From positions 1,028,386 to 1,092,385 of the forward strand of contig NZ_FNJA01000001.1 of assembly GCF_900104385.1 (NCBI RefSeq): a stretch of DNA of 64,000 nucleotides. Reading direction: 5' to 3'. The notes beneath the pieces were generated by a model that made no database searches, had not been told where the DNA came from, and worked only from the letters and a program-made list of their open reading frames with translations. The translations under genes were made by a program, and so were the position numbers. Each line of letters opens with the position of its first letter. Within the stretch, counting starts at the first letter, position 1. Source of the stretch: Rhodoferax sp. OV413. GTDB lineage: Bacteria; Pseudomonadota; Gammaproteobacteria; Burkholderiales; Burkholderiaceae_C. Below, piece by piece: positions 6,097 through 60,598 of this stretch.

Positions 6097-8520
6097 TTAG
6101 TGCTTGACGGGTACGACAGGGGTCGCTGCAGCGGTTTCCAACACAGGAGCAACGACAGCCGGCTCTTCATCGGGCAGTGGCTGGGGCATGCGCTCCAGCG
6201 CAACTTCCAGCACCTGGTCAATCCACTTCACAGGTACGATTTCCAGGCCATTTTTGACATTTTCGGGAATGTCCTGCAGGTCCTTGGCGTTCTCCTCGGG
6301 AATCAACACCGTCTTGATGCCGCCGCGCAGAGCCGCCAGCAGCTTTTCTTTCAAGCCGCCGATGGCCGTGACTTCACCACGCAGGGTGATTTCTCCGGTC
6401 ATGGCCACGTCGCCGCGCACGGGAATACCTGTCAGCGCAGAGACAAACGCAGTCGTCATGGCCGCACCAGCGCTAGGGCCATCCTTGGGGGTGGCACCGT
6501 CGGGCACGTGGATATGGATGTCCTTCTTCTCGAACACCTCGTCCTTGATACCCAGGCGCTTGGAACGGCTACGCACCACGGTGCGGGCCGCTTCCACCGA
6601 CTCTTTCATCACGTCGCCCAGTGAGCCGGTGCGGGTGATCACGCCCTTACCGGGCATGATCGCCGCCTCAATGGTCAGCAAATCGCCGCCCACTTCAGTC
6701 CAGGCCAAGCCCACGACCTGGCCCACCTGGTTCTGCTGCTCGGCACGCCCATAGGTGTACTTTTGCACACCCAGATAATCGTTGAGGTTGTCCGCAGTCA
6801 CCTTGACCTGGGGCACCATCTCCTTGAGCAGCAGGCCTTTGACAACCTTGCGGCAGATCTTGGACAGCTCGCGCTCCAGCGAACGCACGCCGGCTTCACG
6901 GGTGTAGTAACGCACGATGTCCCGCACAGCGTCTGGCGTCAACAACAGCTCGGCTTCGCTCAGGCCGTTGTTCTTCAACTGCTTGGGCAACAGGTAGCGA
7001 ACCGCAATATTGGTCTTTTCGTCTTCGGTATAGCCCGACAAGCGGATCACCTCCATGCGATCCAACAAGGCCGACGGAATATTCATCGAGTTGGACGTCG
7101 CCACAAACATCACATCGCTCAGGTCAAAGTCCACTTCAACATAGTGGTCGCCGAACGTGTGGTTTTGCTCGGGGTCCAGCACCTCCAGCAAGGCGCTGGA
7201 CGGGTCACCCCGGAAGTCCGTACCGAGTTTATCGATCTCATCCAGCAGGAACAGCGGATTACGCGTGCCAATCTTGCTCAAGCTTTGAAGCACCTTACCG
7301 GGCAAGGCCCCAATGTAGGTACGGCGGTGCCCGCGAATTTCAGCTTCGTCGCGCATGCCACCCAAGGCCATGCGCACGTATTTGCGCCCCGTAGCCTTGG
7401 CAATCGACTGACCCAGCGAGGTCTTACCCACGCCTGGAGGACCTACCAGACACAGGATTGGCGCCTTGACCTTGTCGACCCGTTGCTGGACCGCTAAATA
7501 TTCCAGAATACGGTCCTTGACCTTGTCCAACCCGAAGTGGTCTTCGTTGAGCACACCTTCGGCATTGCGCAAATCGTGCTTGATCTTGGTCTTCTTGCTC
7601 CATGGCAGGCCGGTCAGCACGTCGATATAGTTGCGCACCACCGTGGCTTCGGCGGACATGGGTGACATCAGCTTGAGCTTCTTCAGCTCGCTCTCAGCCT
7701 TCTTCAGCGCCTCTTTGGGCATTTTGGACAGCTTGATCTTTTTCTCGATCTCGTCGATGTCCGCGCCCTCTTCGCCTTCGCCCAACTCCTTCTGGATGGC
7801 TTTGACCTGCTCGTTCAGATAGAAATCGCGCTGGTTCTTCTCCATCTGGCGCTTGACGCGGCCGCGGATCTTCTTGTCCACATTCAGAATGTCGACTTCG
7901 CGCTCCAACTGGCCATAGAGGTTTTCCAGTCTTTCGCGCACATCCGACAGATCCAGCACCACTTGTTTGCTATCCAATTTGAGTGGCAAATGGGCTGCAA
8001 TGGTATCGGCCAGACGGCCTGGGTCGTCGATGCTGGAAATCGAGGTCAGGATTTCGGGAGGAATCTTTTTGTTCAGCTTGACGTACTGGTCGAACTGCTG
8101 CATCACGGCACGGCGCAGAGCCTCTATTTCCGTGGTTTTCTGGGTCAGCGCCACAGTAACCACAGGCGTGATGTTCGCGGTGAAATGCGATTCGCCGTCT
8201 TCAATATGGTTAACGCGGGCCCGCTGCTGGCCTTCGACCAGCACTTTGACCGTGCCATCCGGCAACTTCAGCATCTGCAGAATGGTAGAGACGCAGCCGA
8301 CATCAAACATGTCGGATACCGAAGGCTCATCTTTAGCAGCCGCCTTTTGGGCTACGAGCATGATGCGCCGGTCGGATTCCATCGCAGCCTCCAAGGCCTT
8401 GATGCTTTTCGGACGCCCCACAAACAGCGGGATCACCATGTGGGGGAATACCACCACGTCGCGCAGAGGCAACAACGGCAGATCGAGGGGTTCAGCAGGG
8501 AGAGGAATGTGTCCGGACAT
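6097..8520 (-). CDS. lon: ATP-dependent protease Lon (LonA)
   Basis: Cytoplasmic AAA+ serine protease that degrades misfolded and regulatory proteins. It has 807 aa: an N-terminal substrate domain (about 12-205, PLLPLRDVVVFPHMV), a coiled-coil linker, an AAA+ domain with Walker A GPPGVGKT (360-367) and LLDEIDKL, and a proteolytic domain with the catalytic Ser683 in PKDGPSAG and Lys726 in GGLKEKLLAA. All key residues are present. The start has a Shine-Dalgarno AAGGA a few bases upstream. It is last in a tig-clpP-clpX-lon series on the same strand; a 97 bp gap carries its own heat-shock-like promoter. Confidence 0.98.
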   Translation of the reverse strand: MSGHIPLPAEPLDLPLLPLRDVVVFPHMVIPLFVGRPKSIKALEAAMESDRRIMLVAQKAAAKDEPSVSDMFDVGCVSTILQMLKLPDGTVKVLVEGQQRARVNHIEDGESHFTANITPVVTVALTQKTTEIEALRRAVMQQFDQYVKLNKKIPPEILTSISSIDDPGRLADTIAAHLPLKLDSKQVVLDLSDVRERLENLYGQLEREVDILNVDKKIRGRVKRQMEKNQRDFYLNEQVKAIQKELGEGEEGADIDEIEKKIKLSKMPKEALKKAESELKKLKLMSPMSAEATVVRNYIDVLTGLPWSKKTKIKHDLRNAEGVLNEDHFGLDKVKDRILEYLAVQQRVDKVKAPILCLVGPPGVGKTSLGQSIAKATGRKYVRMALGGMRDEAEIRGHRRTYIGALPGKVLQSLSKIGTRNPLFLLDEIDKLGTDFRGDPSSALLEVLDPEQNHTFGDHYVEVDFDLSDVMFVATSNSMNIPSALLDRMEVIRLSGYTEDEKTNIAVRYLLPKQLKNNGLSEAELLLTPDAVRDIVRYYTREAGVRSLERELSKICRKVVKGLLLKEMVPQVKVTADNLNDYLGVQKYTYGRAEQQNQVGQVVGLAWTEVGGDLLTIEAAIMPGKGVITRTGSLGDVMKESVEAARTVVRSRSKRLGIKDEVFEKKDIHIHVPDGATPKDGPSAGAAMTTAFVSALTGIPVRGDVAMTGEITLRGEVTAIGGLKEKLLAALRGGIKTVLIPEENAKDLQDIPENVKNGLEIVPVKWIDQVLEVALERMPQPLPDEEPAVVAPVLETAAATPVVPVKH

Positions 8521-55387: not shown

Positions 55388-56482
55388 GTGGGGATGGCCG
55401 AAACACCCCCGCCGCGTAAAAAATCCAGCGCCCGCTTCATCGACATCGCGGCGCTGGCCCAGGTCAGCCCGGCCACCGTCAACCGGGTGCTGAACGACCG
55501 CGGCAGTGTGTCGGCAACTACCCGCGAGAAGGTGGTGCGCGCGGCGCAGCAGTTGGCGGTGCCGCGGCTGATGCCTGAGGTGCACCGTGGCCTGACCCGC
55601 ATCGACGTGGTGCTGGCACGCAGCCAGACCCCGTTCTTCCAGCGCATGGACCTGGCCTTGCAGCGCTTCATGCAGCTGCTGGACCGGCGCATCGTGGTGC
55701 ACCGCCACAGCTTTGCGCCCGGCGACGACGAGCGCACGGCAGACTTCATCCGCCGCCCGCCACACCCGCGCCACGGCCTGCTGCTGGCGGTGCACGACAC
55801 ACCGGTGCTGCGCGCCGCGGTGCAGCAGGTGAGCCAGCAAGGCGTGCCGGTGGTGACCTTAATGAGCGACATCAGCGATGTGCTGCGCCTGCACTATGCG
55901 GGCATCGACAACCTGCACGCCGGCCGCACCGCCGGGCATTTCATGGGCAGGCTTGCCGCCACAAAAAAAGGCACCGGCGGGCGGCTGCTGGTGCTGACCA
56001 ACGACCTGCATTTCCGCGCCCACCGCGACCGCACGGCCGGCTTTCTGGATGCGGTGCAAGAGAAATTCCCCGCCCTCGCCTGCCTGCCCATCACCCCTTG
56101 TTTTGACGACCCCGACCAGGTGTTCCAGGCGGTGGACGCGGCGCTGAAGCAAGGCGATCTGGCCGGCATCTACCACAGCGGCGCCGGCTCGGCTGGCATC
56201 CACCAGGCGCTGCAGCGCCACGGCTGCGCGGGCCAGGTGGTGTGGATTGGGCACGAACTGTCGGACGAGCACCGCCGCTGGCTCAAGCTGGGCGGGATGG
56301 ATTTGGTGATCGACCAGGACCCGGATGGCCAGGTGCTGTCGGGCATGCAGCACCTGCTGTTTGAGAACAAATGGCTGCAGCAGAAACCGCCGGCCGGGCC
56401 CAACGAATTTCGCCTGTTCTGCGCCGAAAACCTGCCGAGCCAGCCGTATCTGCCGCGTGCGGCTTTGCTATTGGATAAATAG
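55388..56482 (+). CDS. LacI-family transcriptional regulator
   Basis: About 362-364 aa. The helix-turn-helix is FIDIAALAQVSPATVNRVLN (about 17-36), followed by a sensor domain of the ribose-receptor type (RIDVVLARSQTPFFQ, GAGSAGIHQAL). Starts at GTG 55388 or ATG 55394 are both possible; the gap to iolI is only 8 bp, so it is probably co-transcribed. Its last codons and stop lie in a dispersed repeat. An orphan copy of its 3' end occurs at 57899-58018. It probably controls the inositol-type genes. Confidence 0.85.
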   Translation: MGMAETPPPRKKSSARFIDIAALAQVSPATVNRVLNDRGSVSATTREKVVRAAQQLAVPRLMPEVHRGLTRIDVVLARSQTPFFQRMDLALQRFMQLLDRRIVVHRHSFAPGDDERTADFIRRPPHPRHGLLLAVHDTPVLRAAVQQVSQQGVPVVTLMSDISDVLRLHYAGIDNLHAGRTAGHFMGRLAATKKGTGGRLLVLTNDLHFRAHRDRTAGFLDAVQEKFPALACLPITPCFDDPDQVFQAVDAALKQGDLAGIYHSGAGSAGIHQALQRHGCAGQVVWIGHELSDEHRRWLKLGGMDLVIDQDPDGQVLSGMQHLLFENKWLQQKPPAGPNEFRLFCAENLPSQPYLPRAALLLDK

Positions 56483-56502
56483 CTGCTGGCGAATAAACGC
56501 CT
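56464..56502 (-). repeat. Dispersed palindromic repeat at the lacI 3' end
   Basis: Reverse copy, shortened: TTTGCTATTGGATAAATAGC, TGCTGGCGAATAAACGCC. It supplies the last codons and stop of the LacI gene. Confidence 0.55.
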
Positions 56503-56539
56503 TACCATAGGCGGCACAACGCGCAACCATATTTCAGCC

Positions 56540-57133
56540 ATGCAGCACCATATCAAATCAAGTTTGAACGAAGCCCATGCGGCGCTCACGGCACTCCTGC
56601 GTAACCCCATCGCTCTCGCAAGCATTGAGGATGCCGCGAAACTACTCATCAACGTGTTCGAGAACAAGGGGCGTGTCTATTCGTGCGGCAACGGAGGCTC
56701 GATGTGCGATGCCATGCACTTTGCCGAAGAACTAACTGGCCGCTATCGCCACGATCGCCCGGGCTTGGCCGCGACGGCTATCAGTGACGCAGGACACATG
56801 ACTTGCGTGGGCAACGATATGGGCTATGAGCAAGTTTTTTCTCGTTATGTGGAGGCACATGGGCGGCCAGGCGACTGCCTACTGGCACTCAGCACCAGCG
56901 GCACAAGCAAGAACATCATCCGCGCCGCTGCCGCCGCACAGGCGCTGGGTATGAAAGTCATCATCCTCAGCGGCAAGCGCAGCGAAGCTTTGGAAGCGCT
57001 GAGCACGGTGTATATCTGCACCCCAGGCGGCGCCTTTGCGGACCGAGTACAAGAACTGCACATCAAGGTCCTGCATATCCTTATCGAATTGATCGAACGA
57101 AGCCTGTTCCCTAAGAACTACCTTTTGTCATAA
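56540..57133 (+). CDS. gmhA: Sedoheptulose-7-phosphate isomerase
   Basis: First enzyme of ADP-heptose synthesis for LPS core. 197 aa SIS-domain protein, very like the enterobacterial GmhA: SCGNGGSMCDAMHFAEELTGRY is seen in parts (CGNGGS 49-54; AMHFAEELTGRYR), CVGNDMGYEQVFSRYVEA and STSGTSKNI, with the zinc ligands His60, Glu64, Gln171 and His179. It is not the DiaA-type paralogue. Base composition is lower in GC than its neighbours and no other heptose gene is near, so it looks acquired. It sits between repeats. Confidence 0.88.
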   Translation: MQHHIKSSLNEAHAALTALLRNPIALASIEDAAKLLINVFENKGRVYSCGNGGSMCDAMHFAEELTGRYRHDRPGLAATAISDAGHMTCVGNDMGYEQVFSRYVEAHGRPGDCLLALSTSGTSKNIIRAAAAAQALGMKVIILSGKRSEALEALSTVYICTPGGAFADRVQELHIKVLHILIELIERSLFPKNYLLS

Positions 57134-57180
57134 AAAATATAGCGCCTCGCGCAGGTAGATACTGCGTCAGAGGCCTTTTC
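57131..57180 (-). repeat. Dispersed palindromic repeat after gmhA
   Basis: Reverse copy: TATAGCGCCTCGCGCAGGTA, GATACTGCGTCAGAGGCC. It is nearly the reverse complement of the copy at 974-1026. Confidence 0.75.
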
Positions 57181-57183
57181 TCT

Positions 57184-57240
57184 TTAAGAAACCGTGGCTT
57201 CCGGCGAAGTTGACTGGTAGGGCAATTCCAGCGTGTAGGA
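57184..57240 (-). pseudogene. Orphan C-terminal tail of an RpiR-family regulator
   Basis: The minus strand reads YTLELPYQSTSPEATVS then a stop, matching the end of the intact RpiR gene at 59714-60598 (MLELPYQTTTPNGQAVSPK). Only these ~18 codons remain and they abut the hsdM fragment exactly. No upstream part of the gene is present. Confidence 0.65.
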
Positions 57241-57499
57241 CCCCACTGGTGGCATGCTCAGCGTGGCGGACGAACACCTTGCCAGCCTGAACCCCGAAGC
57301 CCGTCTGTTCATGCACGGACAGGAGCTGAACCCCGAGTCCTACGCCATATGCAAGACTGACATGCTCATCAAGGAGCAAACCGTCGGCAACAGTATCCAG
57401 GGCAACACCTTGTCCAACGACGGTTTGCACGGCAAGCACTTCGACTACGCGCTCTCGAACCCACCACTTCGGCGTGGAGTGGAAGAAGATCGAGAAAGA
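57239..57499 (+). pseudogene. hsdM: Fragment of type I restriction-modification methylase HsdM (frameshifted)
   Basis: The frame begins [19 protein letters not shown], a motif I (DPxCGTGG) that has lost residues, then [20 protein letters not shown] and [10 protein letters not shown]. One extra base near 57467 shifts the frame before [11 protein letters not shown]. Motif IV (NPPF) is thus broken. A stop lies just upstream. It is a remnant of about 85 residues of a ~500 aa protein, with no specificity subunit. Confidence 0.85.
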
Positions 57500-57860
57500 C
57501 AGCCGCGCCTTGCAAGAGAAGCAAACCGCCTACATGGCCGAGCTGATCGAGAAGCTGAACGACCTGTTTAGCACCGACACCAGCGAGCAGGACCAGCTGA
57601 GCTGTGTCAACAGTACGATTTTTGGCAAGGTGGCAGAGTTGCAAAAGCTGCAGCTGCAGGCCAGCAACAACAGCAAGGAGCAGTTTGCCACCTCGCCCGA
57701 CCTGCCCCATGAGCTGCAGAACGCCATCATGGAGTCCTTCGACGCCCACACTTCCATGAGCACCCGGGCGCTGAACTCGCCCATCGTGCTGCGCGGCATG
57801 CTGGACGTTTTGCTGAACTACTCGGGACTGCACGAGGCGCTGCGGGCGCGGGCTGCGTAA
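57500..57860 (+). pseudogene. hsdR: C-terminal fragment of type I restriction enzyme HsdR
   Basis: Directly continuous with the hsdM fragment in the shifted frame. [55 protein letters not shown] and LRGMLDVLLNYSGLHEALR match the helical C-terminus of HsdR. It ends in a normal stop at 57858-57860. No nuclease or helicase motifs remain. The join records a deletion through an hsdM-(S)-R operon. Confidence 0.82.
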
Positions 57861-57898
57861 GAGTGCGCCAAAGACTGCTCCGGCTGCTCCAGCCCCAG

Positions 57899-58018
57899 TG
57901 ACTGCAACAGCAACCGCCTGCCGGACCCAATGAATTTCGCCTGTTCTGCGCCGAAAACCTGCCGAGCCAGCCTTACTTGCCTACGATCCACATATCCGAA
58001 AAACTATCAAAACAATAG
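57899..58018 (+). pseudogene. Orphan 3' end of the LacI-family gene
   Basis: The segment repeats about 80 bp of the 3' end of the intact gene at 55388-56482, with an identical core of about 40 bp encoding EFRLFCAENLPSQPYLP-like residues. A Trp codon of the intact gene is TGA here (57899-57901). The tail then differs (TIHISEKLSKQ) and stops at 58016-58018 inside a palindromic repeat. No start or upstream coding part exists. Confidence 0.8.
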
Positions 58019-58035
58019 CAGCTAACGCAGAATCC
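58003..58035 (-). repeat. Dispersed palindromic repeat (reverse, truncated)
   Basis: ACTATCAAAACAATAGCAGC followed by TAACGCAG. It overlaps the end of the lacI relic, mirroring the repeat at the end of the intact lacI. Confidence 0.6.
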
Positions 58036-58061
58036 ATAAGCACCAAAGACCAATCCGAACA

Positions 58062-58985
58062 TCAACCCTGGGTGCCAAAGGCCGCATCAGACAGCGTCTG
58101 CTGGCGGCGAAACTCCATCGGCGTACACCCCGCCTCGCGCTTGAAGAACTTCACAAAATTGGCCAGATCATTGAAGCCAATATCCTCGGAAATACGCGAA
58201 ACCGATAGCCCCGTATGCGCCAACATGCGCTTGGCTTCCAAGATGACCCGGGCGGAGATGAGCACCTTCGGGTTGACACCCGCCACCTCCATGGACGCAC
58301 GCGCCAGGCTTTTCTCAGAACAAGCCAGTTGATCGGCGTATTTGGCGATCTGGTGCCAGTGCGCAAAGTTCTTTTCCAATAGCTGCTCAAAGTCTTTGAA
58401 CCGCTGGAATACGCGGCTGAGGGGCGCAGCTTGCACCGCCTGCCGCTCGTGAATAATTCGAATCCGCATCAGCAGCGCATAGAGTTGATGGCGCAGCAAG
58501 GCATGCGCATGCTGTAGCGCCGCACTGATTCCGGCATCCTCGTGCATCTGCGCTATGGCATTGGTGATGGCGCGTATTTCTCCGTCGCCCACAGTCAGAT
58601 GAACCGGCAGTCCATCGAGGCCGCCAAGCGCTGTCAAATCTGGCGCCGTGGAAGACGACGTCCAGAGAAATTCTGAGCGGAACAGCACCATCCATCCGTC
58701 CCAATTCTCCTTTGGCCCAAAGCTGTGGGCCTTTCCAGGGGGCAACACGAGCAACGAGCCCGGTTGGCAATGCAGCGACTCGAAATCGACCACATGGGTG
58801 CACTCTCCTTCCGAGACAAATATCAAAGTCGGAAAGGCGTAGCGATGGGTTGAACTGAGCACCGGGGTGCCAAACCGCCGACGGAGATCGGACACGAAAA
58901 ATATCTCCAGATCGAGCTTGTAGCTTCCCCCCGGCTGGTAACGGAGATGCGGGATGTCGGTGCCCGGTTGGCTTTTCCTCGTCAT
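58062..58985 (-). CDS. AraC-family transcriptional regulator with cupin sensor
   Basis: 307 aa. The N-terminal ~110 residues are a cupin-like arabinose-binding domain (LIFVSEGECTHVV, LLVLPPGKAHSFGP). The C-terminal ~100 residues carry two helix-turn-helices (YADQLACSEKSLARAS and VSRISEDIGFNDLANFVKFF, ending in GCTPMEFRR). It is divergent from the SnoaL-like gene (224 bp gap, no clear motif), which it probably controls. GC content is lower than the window average. Confidence 0.85.
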   Translation of the reverse strand: MTRKSQPGTDIPHLRYQPGGSYKLDLEIFFVSDLRRRFGTPVLSSTHRYAFPTLIFVSEGECTHVVDFESLHCQPGSLLVLPPGKAHSFGPKENWDGWMVLFRSEFLWTSSSTAPDLTALGGLDGLPVHLTVGDGEIRAITNAIAQMHEDAGISAALQHAHALLRHQLYALLMRIRIIHERQAVQAAPLSRVFQRFKDFEQLLEKNFAHWHQIAKYADQLACSEKSLARASMEVAGVNPKVLISARVILEAKRMLAHTGLSVSRISEDIGFNDLANFVKFFKREAGCTPMEFRRQQTLSDAAFGTQG

Positions 58986-59209
58986 GGTTGCCTTATCAAC
59001 AAGTAGATAAGCCCAAACCCCAGTATGTCTTGAATATACAGTTTTCAGCCTATTTCCTACCGTGATTTACGAAAGCAACTGTCTAATAATTACCGCTCCA
59101 ATCCACGAACCATGCCGCGCCGTATGTTCTCTTTGCCGTCACGGCCTTGCAGAACTGCCCGCGGTGCTGGCGCCACAGCCCTTCTCAACACTTCCATCAA
59201 GAAAAACCC

Positions 59210-59599
59210 ATGCTCAACATCCAGACTGCAAAAACCTACATCCAAGCCGCCCAGACAGGCGATCAAGCCACACTGGGCAGTGTCATTTCGCCCGACGTTG
59301 TCTGGCACCAGCCAGGAAACAACCAGTTCTCGGGCACACACCGCGGTATGGCTGCGGTAGGGGCCATGCTGGCCAAGATGATGGAAGTCTCCAAAGGAAC
59401 GTTCACGATCGCAGCTGCCGACCAGTTCATGGCCAATGGCGACTGGGTGGCAATTACGCTCGAATTTTCGGGCCAACGCGATGGCATTGAGCTCAAGCAA
59501 GCGGGGGTAGACCTCCTCCGCATTGAAGGCGGCAAGATTGTCGAGGTTCGCCTTTTCTCCAGCGACCCAGCGCAAGAAGACACCTTCTGGGGACATTGA
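59210..59599 (+). CDS. SnoaL/NTF2-like small protein
   Basis: 129 aa, nuclear transport factor 2 fold (KTYIQAAQTGDQATLGSVIS, DVVWHQPGNN, GGKIVEVRLFSSD). Members are isomerases, dehydratases or small-ligand binders; the reaction is unknown. The ATG at 59210 is chosen because the conserved domain begins there; a longer frame adds a non-conserved leader. It is divergent from the AraC gene, its likely regulator. The 114 bp gap to rpiR shows nothing recognisable. Confidence 0.75.
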   Translation: MLNIQTAKTYIQAAQTGDQATLGSVISPDVVWHQPGNNQFSGTHRGMAAVGAMLAKMMEVSKGTFTIAAADQFMANGDWVAITLEFSGQRDGIELKQAGVDLLRIEGGKIVEVRLFSSDPAQEDTFWGH

Positions 59600-59713
59600 G
59601 GCGCAGGCGCGCGCCGCCTTGCTTTGCACACGGGCGACGCCCGAGGCATTCCGTGCGCATCTCCGCGTGGTTTCGCTCTCGCGGAGCGAGCCGATACCGC
59701 CTGTGCTGCCGCC

Positions 59714-60598
59714 CTATTTCGGCGAAACCGCCTGGCCGTTGGGCGTAGTGGTCTGGTAAGGCAGCTCAAGCATGTAGGCCAGGGCGATGAACAGGCTTTG
59801 CGCCAGGCCCATGGTGCTATTCAGCGAGCGGAAGCCGAAGGTAGAGTTGTCCTGCACCACCAGCGTCACCTGGGCCAGCTTGGCCAGCGGGCTCATGCGG
59901 CTGTCGGTGATGGCGATCAGGCGCGCGCCGCGCTCCTCGGCCATCTTGGCAACGTTGATGGTTTCCTCGGCATAGGGCGAGAACGAGATCGCCAGCATCA
60001 CATCGCCCTTGCGCACCGAGCGCATCTGGCCCAGGTGCATGCTGCCCATGCCCGATACCAGGCCGACCCGCTTGTCGGTGTGCTGCAAGGCGTAGTCCAG
60101 GTACACCGCCACCGGGAACGAACGGCGCGATGCGGCGATCCAGATGCAGTCGCTCTCGGCCAGCAGGTCCACGGCCTTCTTGAAGGTCGGCCCGTGCAGG
60201 CTGGCCTGCAGCTCCTGCATGCCAGCAATGCTGCCGGACAGGAATTCGTTGGCGATCTGCACGCTGGACAGGCTGCCCGCGCCCGACTCGATCACGTCGC
60301 GGATGCGGGTCTTGTAGTTGCGCGCGGGCGCCAGCTGGCGCGACAGGCCTTCGCGGAAGATGGCCTGCATTTCCGAGAAGCCGCTAAAGCCGAAATGCTT
60401 GGCAAACCGCACCACCGCCGAGGGCTGCACGCCGCACTGCGTGGCCACCTGCTGGATGCCGTCCAACCCGATGTGGTGGCGGTTCTGCTCCACATAGCGG
60501 GCAATCACCTTGAGCTGCTTGCTCAGCGCGTCGTATTCGCCAGTGATGCGCTTGATCAGCTGGTCGACGCTGGTTTTAGGGTCCTTGTCAGCGGGCAT
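59714..60598 (-). CDS. RpiR-family transcriptional regulator (HTH-SIS)
   Basis: 294 aa. The N-terminal RpiR HTH (about 10-85: RYVEQNRHHIGLDGIQQVA and QPSAVVRFAKHFGFSGFSEMQ) is followed by a SIS sugar-phosphate domain (about 130-270: SDCIWIAASRRSFPVAVYLD, GDVMLAISFSPYAEETI). It is divergent from the ferredoxin reductase gene across an A+T-rich 141 bp region. RpiR proteins of this shape often control inositol or sugar-acid genes. An orphan copy of its C-terminus lies at 57184-57240. Confidence 0.87.
   Translation of the reverse strand: MPADKDPKTSVDQLIKRITGEYDALSKQLKVIARYVEQNRHHIGLDGIQQVATQCGVQPSAVVRFAKHFGFSGFSEMQAIFREGLSRQLAPARNYKTRIRDVIESGAGSLSSVQIANEFLSGSIAGMQELQASLHGPTFKKAVDLLAESDCIWIAASRRSFPVAVYLDYALQHTDKRVGLVSGMGSMHLGQMRSVRKGDVMLAISFSPYAEETINVAKMAEERGARLIAITDSRMSPLAKLAQVTLVVQDNSTFGFRSLNSTMGLAQSLFIALAYMLELPYQTTTPNGQAVSPK

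Follow-up and report, generated by a model that had tools for sequence, protein, structure and literature searches.

A 3.2-kb block separates two intact regulator genes, lacI and rpiR, in the 5.74-Mb genome of Rhodoferax sp. OV413, and we propose, with about even chances of being right, that this locus is a decayed scar left when inserted DNA duplicated its own landing site. The block lies in the window, by which we mean the whole 64,000-nucleotide stretch of DNA that was analysed (G000:C5:1028386-1092385), and it holds, in this order, gmhA, an orphan 3' end of rpiR, the remnant of a type I restriction-modification (RM) operon (hsd), an orphan 3' end of lacI, araC, and snoaL. Both orphan ends, hereafter called tails, include a stop codon and face outwards from the hsd remnant, as direct target copies on each side of an insert would. 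The original prediction had described this gene order, which coordinates and domain matches bear out (Table 1), and had read the two tails as the remains of a lacI...rpiR unit that was duplicated in tandem and then lost its junction, an interpretation that our results support in part.

The state from which the locus departed can be seen in relatives. Besides the window's own genome, seven same-genus genomes were searched, among them G001 and G006, which are 73% and 71% complete. An orthologue of lacI (expectation value [E] below 1e-200) was found in five of the seven and not in G001 or G004, and in four of those five (G002, G003, G005, and G006) it converges with rpiR, the protein matches being about 50 to 270 bases apart. 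Beyond rpiR, these genomes carry, as the window does, a ferredoxin-reductase-like gene and then a further gene, which we take to be DUF692-like (Pfam gave no match). Sphaerotilus hippei (L013) also has the convergent pair, with 45 bases between its members. The comparison in relatives that the original prediction had proposed thus yielded the simple lacI...rpiR arrangement in these five genomes, and the intact double copy, which was its other possible outcome, was not found in any of the five other same-genus genomes with this lacI. In this genus, then, lacI and rpiR ancestrally formed a single convergent pair and, since the pair is simple in relatives, the 3.2-kb block is new in the window's lineage. 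Altogether, 33 related loci were compared, of which L008, L009, and L010 were counted as G005, G002, and G006; among the 30 others, an rpiR relative lies several kilobases off in L011 and L032, and 27 have no rpiR relative within the stretch searched (E 1e-15).

Two relatives depart from the simple arrangement in ways of their own. In G007 (L071, L178), lacI and rpiR are about 7 kb apart and rearranged, the ferredoxin-reductase-like gene and the presumed DUF692-like gene staying with rpiR. In G005, the lacI-rpiR spacer (L074, about 8250-8510) is enlarged by several CCTTCGACAGGCTCAGG-type repeat copies, so that the junction took up other DNA there too.

The lacI tail is the stronger of the two copies. 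Over a core of 83 bases (57899-57981, against 56372-56454 in the intact gene), 74 are identical, and LacI residues 336-356 are matched at 21 of 21 positions (E 1.3e-10 in a search against the block). Homology probably begins before this core, at 57877, judging from the 22 bases that start there, 15 of which are common with lacI of G002, a match reached by 0 of 100,000 shuffles, and 13 with the window's own lacI. Within the core, the own gene is the closest of those compared (74/83, against 62-70/83 for five orthologues) and is strictly nearest to the tail in 84% of bootstraps; three sites are common to the own gene and the tail alone. This closeness speaks against unrelated regulators that were brought in separately by transfer, the case in which the original prediction would have been wrong. 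Eight of the nine core differences were assigned to the tail, with the reservation that for roughly half of these differences the orthologues are compatible with either direction, and seven of these eight run from G/C to A/T, as in decay.

The rpiR tail appears to be a real copy as well, a weaker one. Its 18 residues align with the intact C-terminus AYMLELPYQTTTPNGQAVSPK and its stop, with 9 of 15 residues identical and an E value of 0.006 in the block, no better than that of an RpiR sugar-isomerase fold match to gmhA in the same search. At the nucleotide level, scored against two targets only, it reached 35 with the own rpiR and 39 with that of G003, where the maxima of 5,000 shuffles each were 28 and 26, no shuffle reaching either score. 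RpiR C-termini vary among relatives; that of the tail has nine residues after ELPYQ, a length equal to that in four of the five relatives, and ends in TVS and a stop, like that of G002. Beside it lies sequence that will align with the spacer between lacI and rpiR in G002, G003, and G006, the spacer itself being part of a dispersed repeat. The tail is supported by this position beside spacer-like sequence and by its length. It is highly improbable, in our view, that only the lacI tail was duplicated, what looks like an rpiR tail being some unrelated or chance C-terminal sequence and the gene order a coincidence. The match does span just 17-18 codons at an E value no better than that of the fold match, but the shuffles speak otherwise, the stop falls where relatives predict it, and the tail runs into the spacer-like sequence. 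Both tails that the original prediction had noticed can be taken as real. The intact rpiR, for its part, ends in NGQAVSPK and a stop (59714-59735), three to four residues longer than in G002, G003, G005, G006, and G007, and the extension is towards the inserted side.

The middle of the block is a collapsed type I RM operon in which a fragment of hsdM is fused to the end of hsdR (57244-57860, plus strand). Both stretches have 80% DNA identity to G373, where 6.3 kb separates them. On its left side the remnant breaks off within hsdM, and by eye the junction with the rpiR tail falls close to a TGTA that both have in common. On its right side it runs to the hsdR stop, and 16 bases later the lacI homology sets in; it follows from these edges that one deletion is needed at the left, one inside the operon, and none at the right. 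Only the 3' ends of the flanking genes are recognisable: in the search against the block no other part of them stood out, and after the tails the best scores belonged to an inverted match of 22 bases to gmhA (E 0.003) and to the RpiR fold match to gmhA. Neither Pfam nor NCBIfam recognised a plasmid or phage gene in the block. Since the copies that flank the RM remnant are of 3' ends only, an insertion with target duplication fits better than duplication of the whole unit.

Based on these results, we suggest the following course of events. In an ancestor, as in relatives today, lacI and rpiR ran towards each other with a short spacer between them. DNA with a type I RM operon (hsdM...hsdR) would have entered this junction in such a way that a short target segment, from the 3' end of lacI across the spacer to the 3' end of rpiR, was left on both sides. 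Two routes might have led there, an insertion with long target duplication, which Nobusato et al. reportedly described in 2000 for RM genes, or a single-crossover integration of a circle that carried hsd and a short lacI'-spacer-rpiR' segment; their products would be alike. The operon would then have collapsed, one deletion taking the start of hsdM and perhaps part of the rpiR copy and another the hsd middle; the two junctions are visible in the DNA, and the order of the events is conjectural. The orphan tails would have decayed, the lacI tail acquiring its stop codon and mostly G/C to A/T changes. Separately, gmhA would have entered the left spacer copy and araC-snoaL the right one, two insertions that we infer because each cargo occurs in just one of the two spacer copies.

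Several observations weigh against this insertion with target duplication. The copies should have been identical when made, and they are far from it now, at 74/83 in the lacI core and 27/36 in rpiR; old decay and import would both account for this. The rpiR tail is short and, with its 27/36 bases, no closer to the own rpiR than to the five orthologues (27-28/36), so few bases holding no kinship signal. Two lacI-core sites are common to the tail and G006 alone. The intermediate allele, lacI-hsd-rpiR, was not found. Flanking direct repeats around 20 loci with related intact hsd operons (hand-picked among those that matched both hsdM and hsdR, at least five more, G101, G145, G215, G296, and G408, being left out) showed no clear excess: any match was seen at 4 of the 20 loci and in 44 of the 380 mismatched pairs used as a control, from which about 2.3 of 20 would be expected. 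Finally, only two of the eight tail-assigned lacI changes alter a residue (one of them to a stop), fewer than when changes of the same spectrum were simulated as neutral (P 0.031).

The divergence of the copies bears on a different origin, namely, that the tails are the flanks of sister-species DNA that recombined in together with the hsd operon and are thus diverged alleles rather than copies made here. We regard this as quite unlikely. The lacI tail differs from the own gene at 9 of 83 positions, near the between-species level of 11 of 83 (own lacI against G005 or G002), and the two sites common with G006, an rpiR tail equidistant from all the rpiR genes compared, and the low guanine-plus-cytosine (G+C) content of gmhA, the hsd pieces, araC, and snoaL (56-60%, against 64-69% in the flanking genes) would all agree with such an import. 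Against it stand the three core sites that the tail has in common with the own lacI alone, and searches of the 8 genomes of the genus, the 399 genomes of the family (own included, mostly with only two candidate places scored in each), viral contigs, and plasmids turned up no better donor.

Residue changes in the lacI tail are scarce, as they would be if this copy had formerly been functional, and this leads back to the tandem duplication of the original prediction. Such a duplication would require that the whole lacI...rpiR unit was duplicated, that both copies worked for a while, and that an hsd operon later inserted at the junction, with deletions taking away the greater part of one rpiR and of one lacI. 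The tails do stand in direct-repeat order, the own lacI is nearest to the lacI tail, and the residue changes in the latter are somewhat too few for neutral decay (P about 0.03). What the unit model lacks are gene-interior remnants and a double copy: the remaining ~320 codons of lacI and ~273 of rpiR leave no trace that stood out in the block, and none of the five other same-genus genomes with this lacI (G006 being 71% complete) has two copies. Besides, the model calls for the hsd operon to have been inserted in a separate event and for one more deletion, ending 16 bases past the hsdR stop. On balance, we place it on the unlikely side; a second, formerly working lacI may have existed. An insertion that duplicated the 3' ends and spacer remains the reading that we favour.

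Table 1. Features of the lacI-rpiR locus (window positions)
Feature	Position	Strand	Remarks
LacI-family regulator, intact	55388-56482	+	left partner of the ancestral convergent pair; Pfam LacI, Peripla_BP_4
Left part of lacI-rpiR spacer with partial dispersed repeat, upstream of gmhA	56479-56539	+	
gmhA-like sedoheptulose-7-phosphate isomerase (SIS)	56540-57133	+	cargo in left spacer copy
Right part of spacer (dispersed palindromic repeat)	57136-57183		alignable with G002, G003, and G006 lacI-rpiR spacers
Orphan rpiR tail	57184-57240	-	last 17-18 codons and stop
hsdM fragment	57244-57496	+	starts at GGML motif; Pfam N6_Mtase
hsdR 3' end	57500-57860	+	~120 codons and stop, joined to hsdM fragment
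Orphan lacI tail	57877-58018	+	~46 codons; in-frame TGA at 57899-57901, frame continuing to TAG at 58016-58018
Partial dispersed repeat and spacer downstream of orphan lacI tail	58015-58061	+	
AraC-family regulator, divergent from snoaL	58062-58985	-	cargo in right spacer copy
SnoaL-like protein	59204-59599	+	cargo in right spacer copy
RpiR-family regulator, intact	59714-60598	-	

The two intact regulators probably still work, and nothing was seen that points to a function for the orphan tails. The G+C content of the tails is lower than that of the cargo genes and hsd pieces, at 53% (with spacer) and 55%; the araC-snoaL gap has 49% and the snoaL-rpiR gap 73%.

The original prediction had further pointed to a palindromic repeat at both lacI ends. 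The repeat is there in a loose form, with three mismatches at each end, and it is worthless as evidence of duplication because it is dispersed genome-wide. Indeed, the half-site ATAGCTGCTNGCGC has 526 matches in the genome with at most one mismatch, against 9 for a reversed control, although each palindromic copy may be counted once per strand, which would put the number of repeat copies at about half of 526; on these counts, we rejected the repeat as an argument for duplication. Its 17-base form, with up to three mismatches, has 10 matches in the window against 3.2 expected (at 997, 15517, 23261, 23323, 25002, 38095, 42596, 56479, 57139, and 58015). In a motif survey, Rhodoferax ferrireducens T118 is the genome with the most significant spaced motif pairs (PMC5217627), which may be of another kind than the ATAGCTGCTNGCGC repeat.

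Repeat-like sequence stands on each side of gmhA both here and in G005, which raises the idea that the dispersed palindromic repeat at intergenic gene ends serves as a landing or exchange site, through which convergent junctions like that of lacI and rpiR would repeatedly take up repeat-bounded gene cassettes. We consider this very unlikely. The gmhA-like protein, which scores just under the NCBIfam cut-offs, is patchily distributed: among the seven other same-genus genomes, only G005 has a close relative (88% amino acid identity), at a different locus, the other matches being at most 44% identical. There (L170, 4751-5335), with the repeat-like sequence seen by eye at both sides, the gene is flanked on one side by a small open reading frame (ORF) with numerous weaker DNA matches across the genus. 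On the other side comes a transporter-like ORF, and after it ORFs that resemble coxB and coxA, these names being assigned by eye. The window's genome retains the transporter-coxB stretch at C5:1212779. As for the right-hand cargo, araC and snoaL are adjacent in all four genomes fetched for the pair (G115, G237, G381, and G409).

Wider searches returned the modules of the block one at a time. When the 3.26-kb block was compared with the 399 family genomes (own included, with two candidate places scored in most), neither the same scar nor an intermediate was found, only single modules (gmhA, hsdM, hsdR, araC, snoaL, and the lacI end). Viral contigs gave five candidate stretches for lacI, none of them a relative, and plasmids gave lacI relatives in 731 records, all below 60% identity. 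The block itself matched 54 plasmid records, the 12 matches listed being to hsd pieces only. Around the related intact hsd operon of G342 (L211), we saw a 129-base flanking direct repeat, 89% identical, the only long one at the 20 hsd loci compared, which looks to be of the dispersed intergenic type (judged by eye).

The kind of scar proposed here is already known, and the locus is otherwise ordinary genome wear. It adds a probable old, decayed example of an RM operon inserted with target duplication, and it illustrates how a scar of this sort may be mistaken for tandem duplication of genes. A tandem duplication with junction loss would likewise leave gene remnants in direct order, whereas at this locus only short 3' ends remain, with foreign hsd pieces exactly between them. 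Campbell-type (insertion-duplication) integration of circular DNA by a single crossover yields two truncated homologous segments that face away from the inserted backbone, which is the same product as here; the difference is that Pfam and NCBIfam picked out no gene of plasmid or phage origin in the block and that its middle consists of hsd pieces only. RM genes, according to two reports, both of which cite Nobusato et al., insert with long and variable target duplications (PMC3031569, PMC1643837). The locus has in common with such insertions the RM genes at the insert, the direct target copies on both sides, and the single-copy site in relatives; it differs from them in that the RM operon is wrecked, the copies are at about 89% (lacI core) and 75% (rpiR) identity, and each spacer copy has taken on extra, unrelated cargo.

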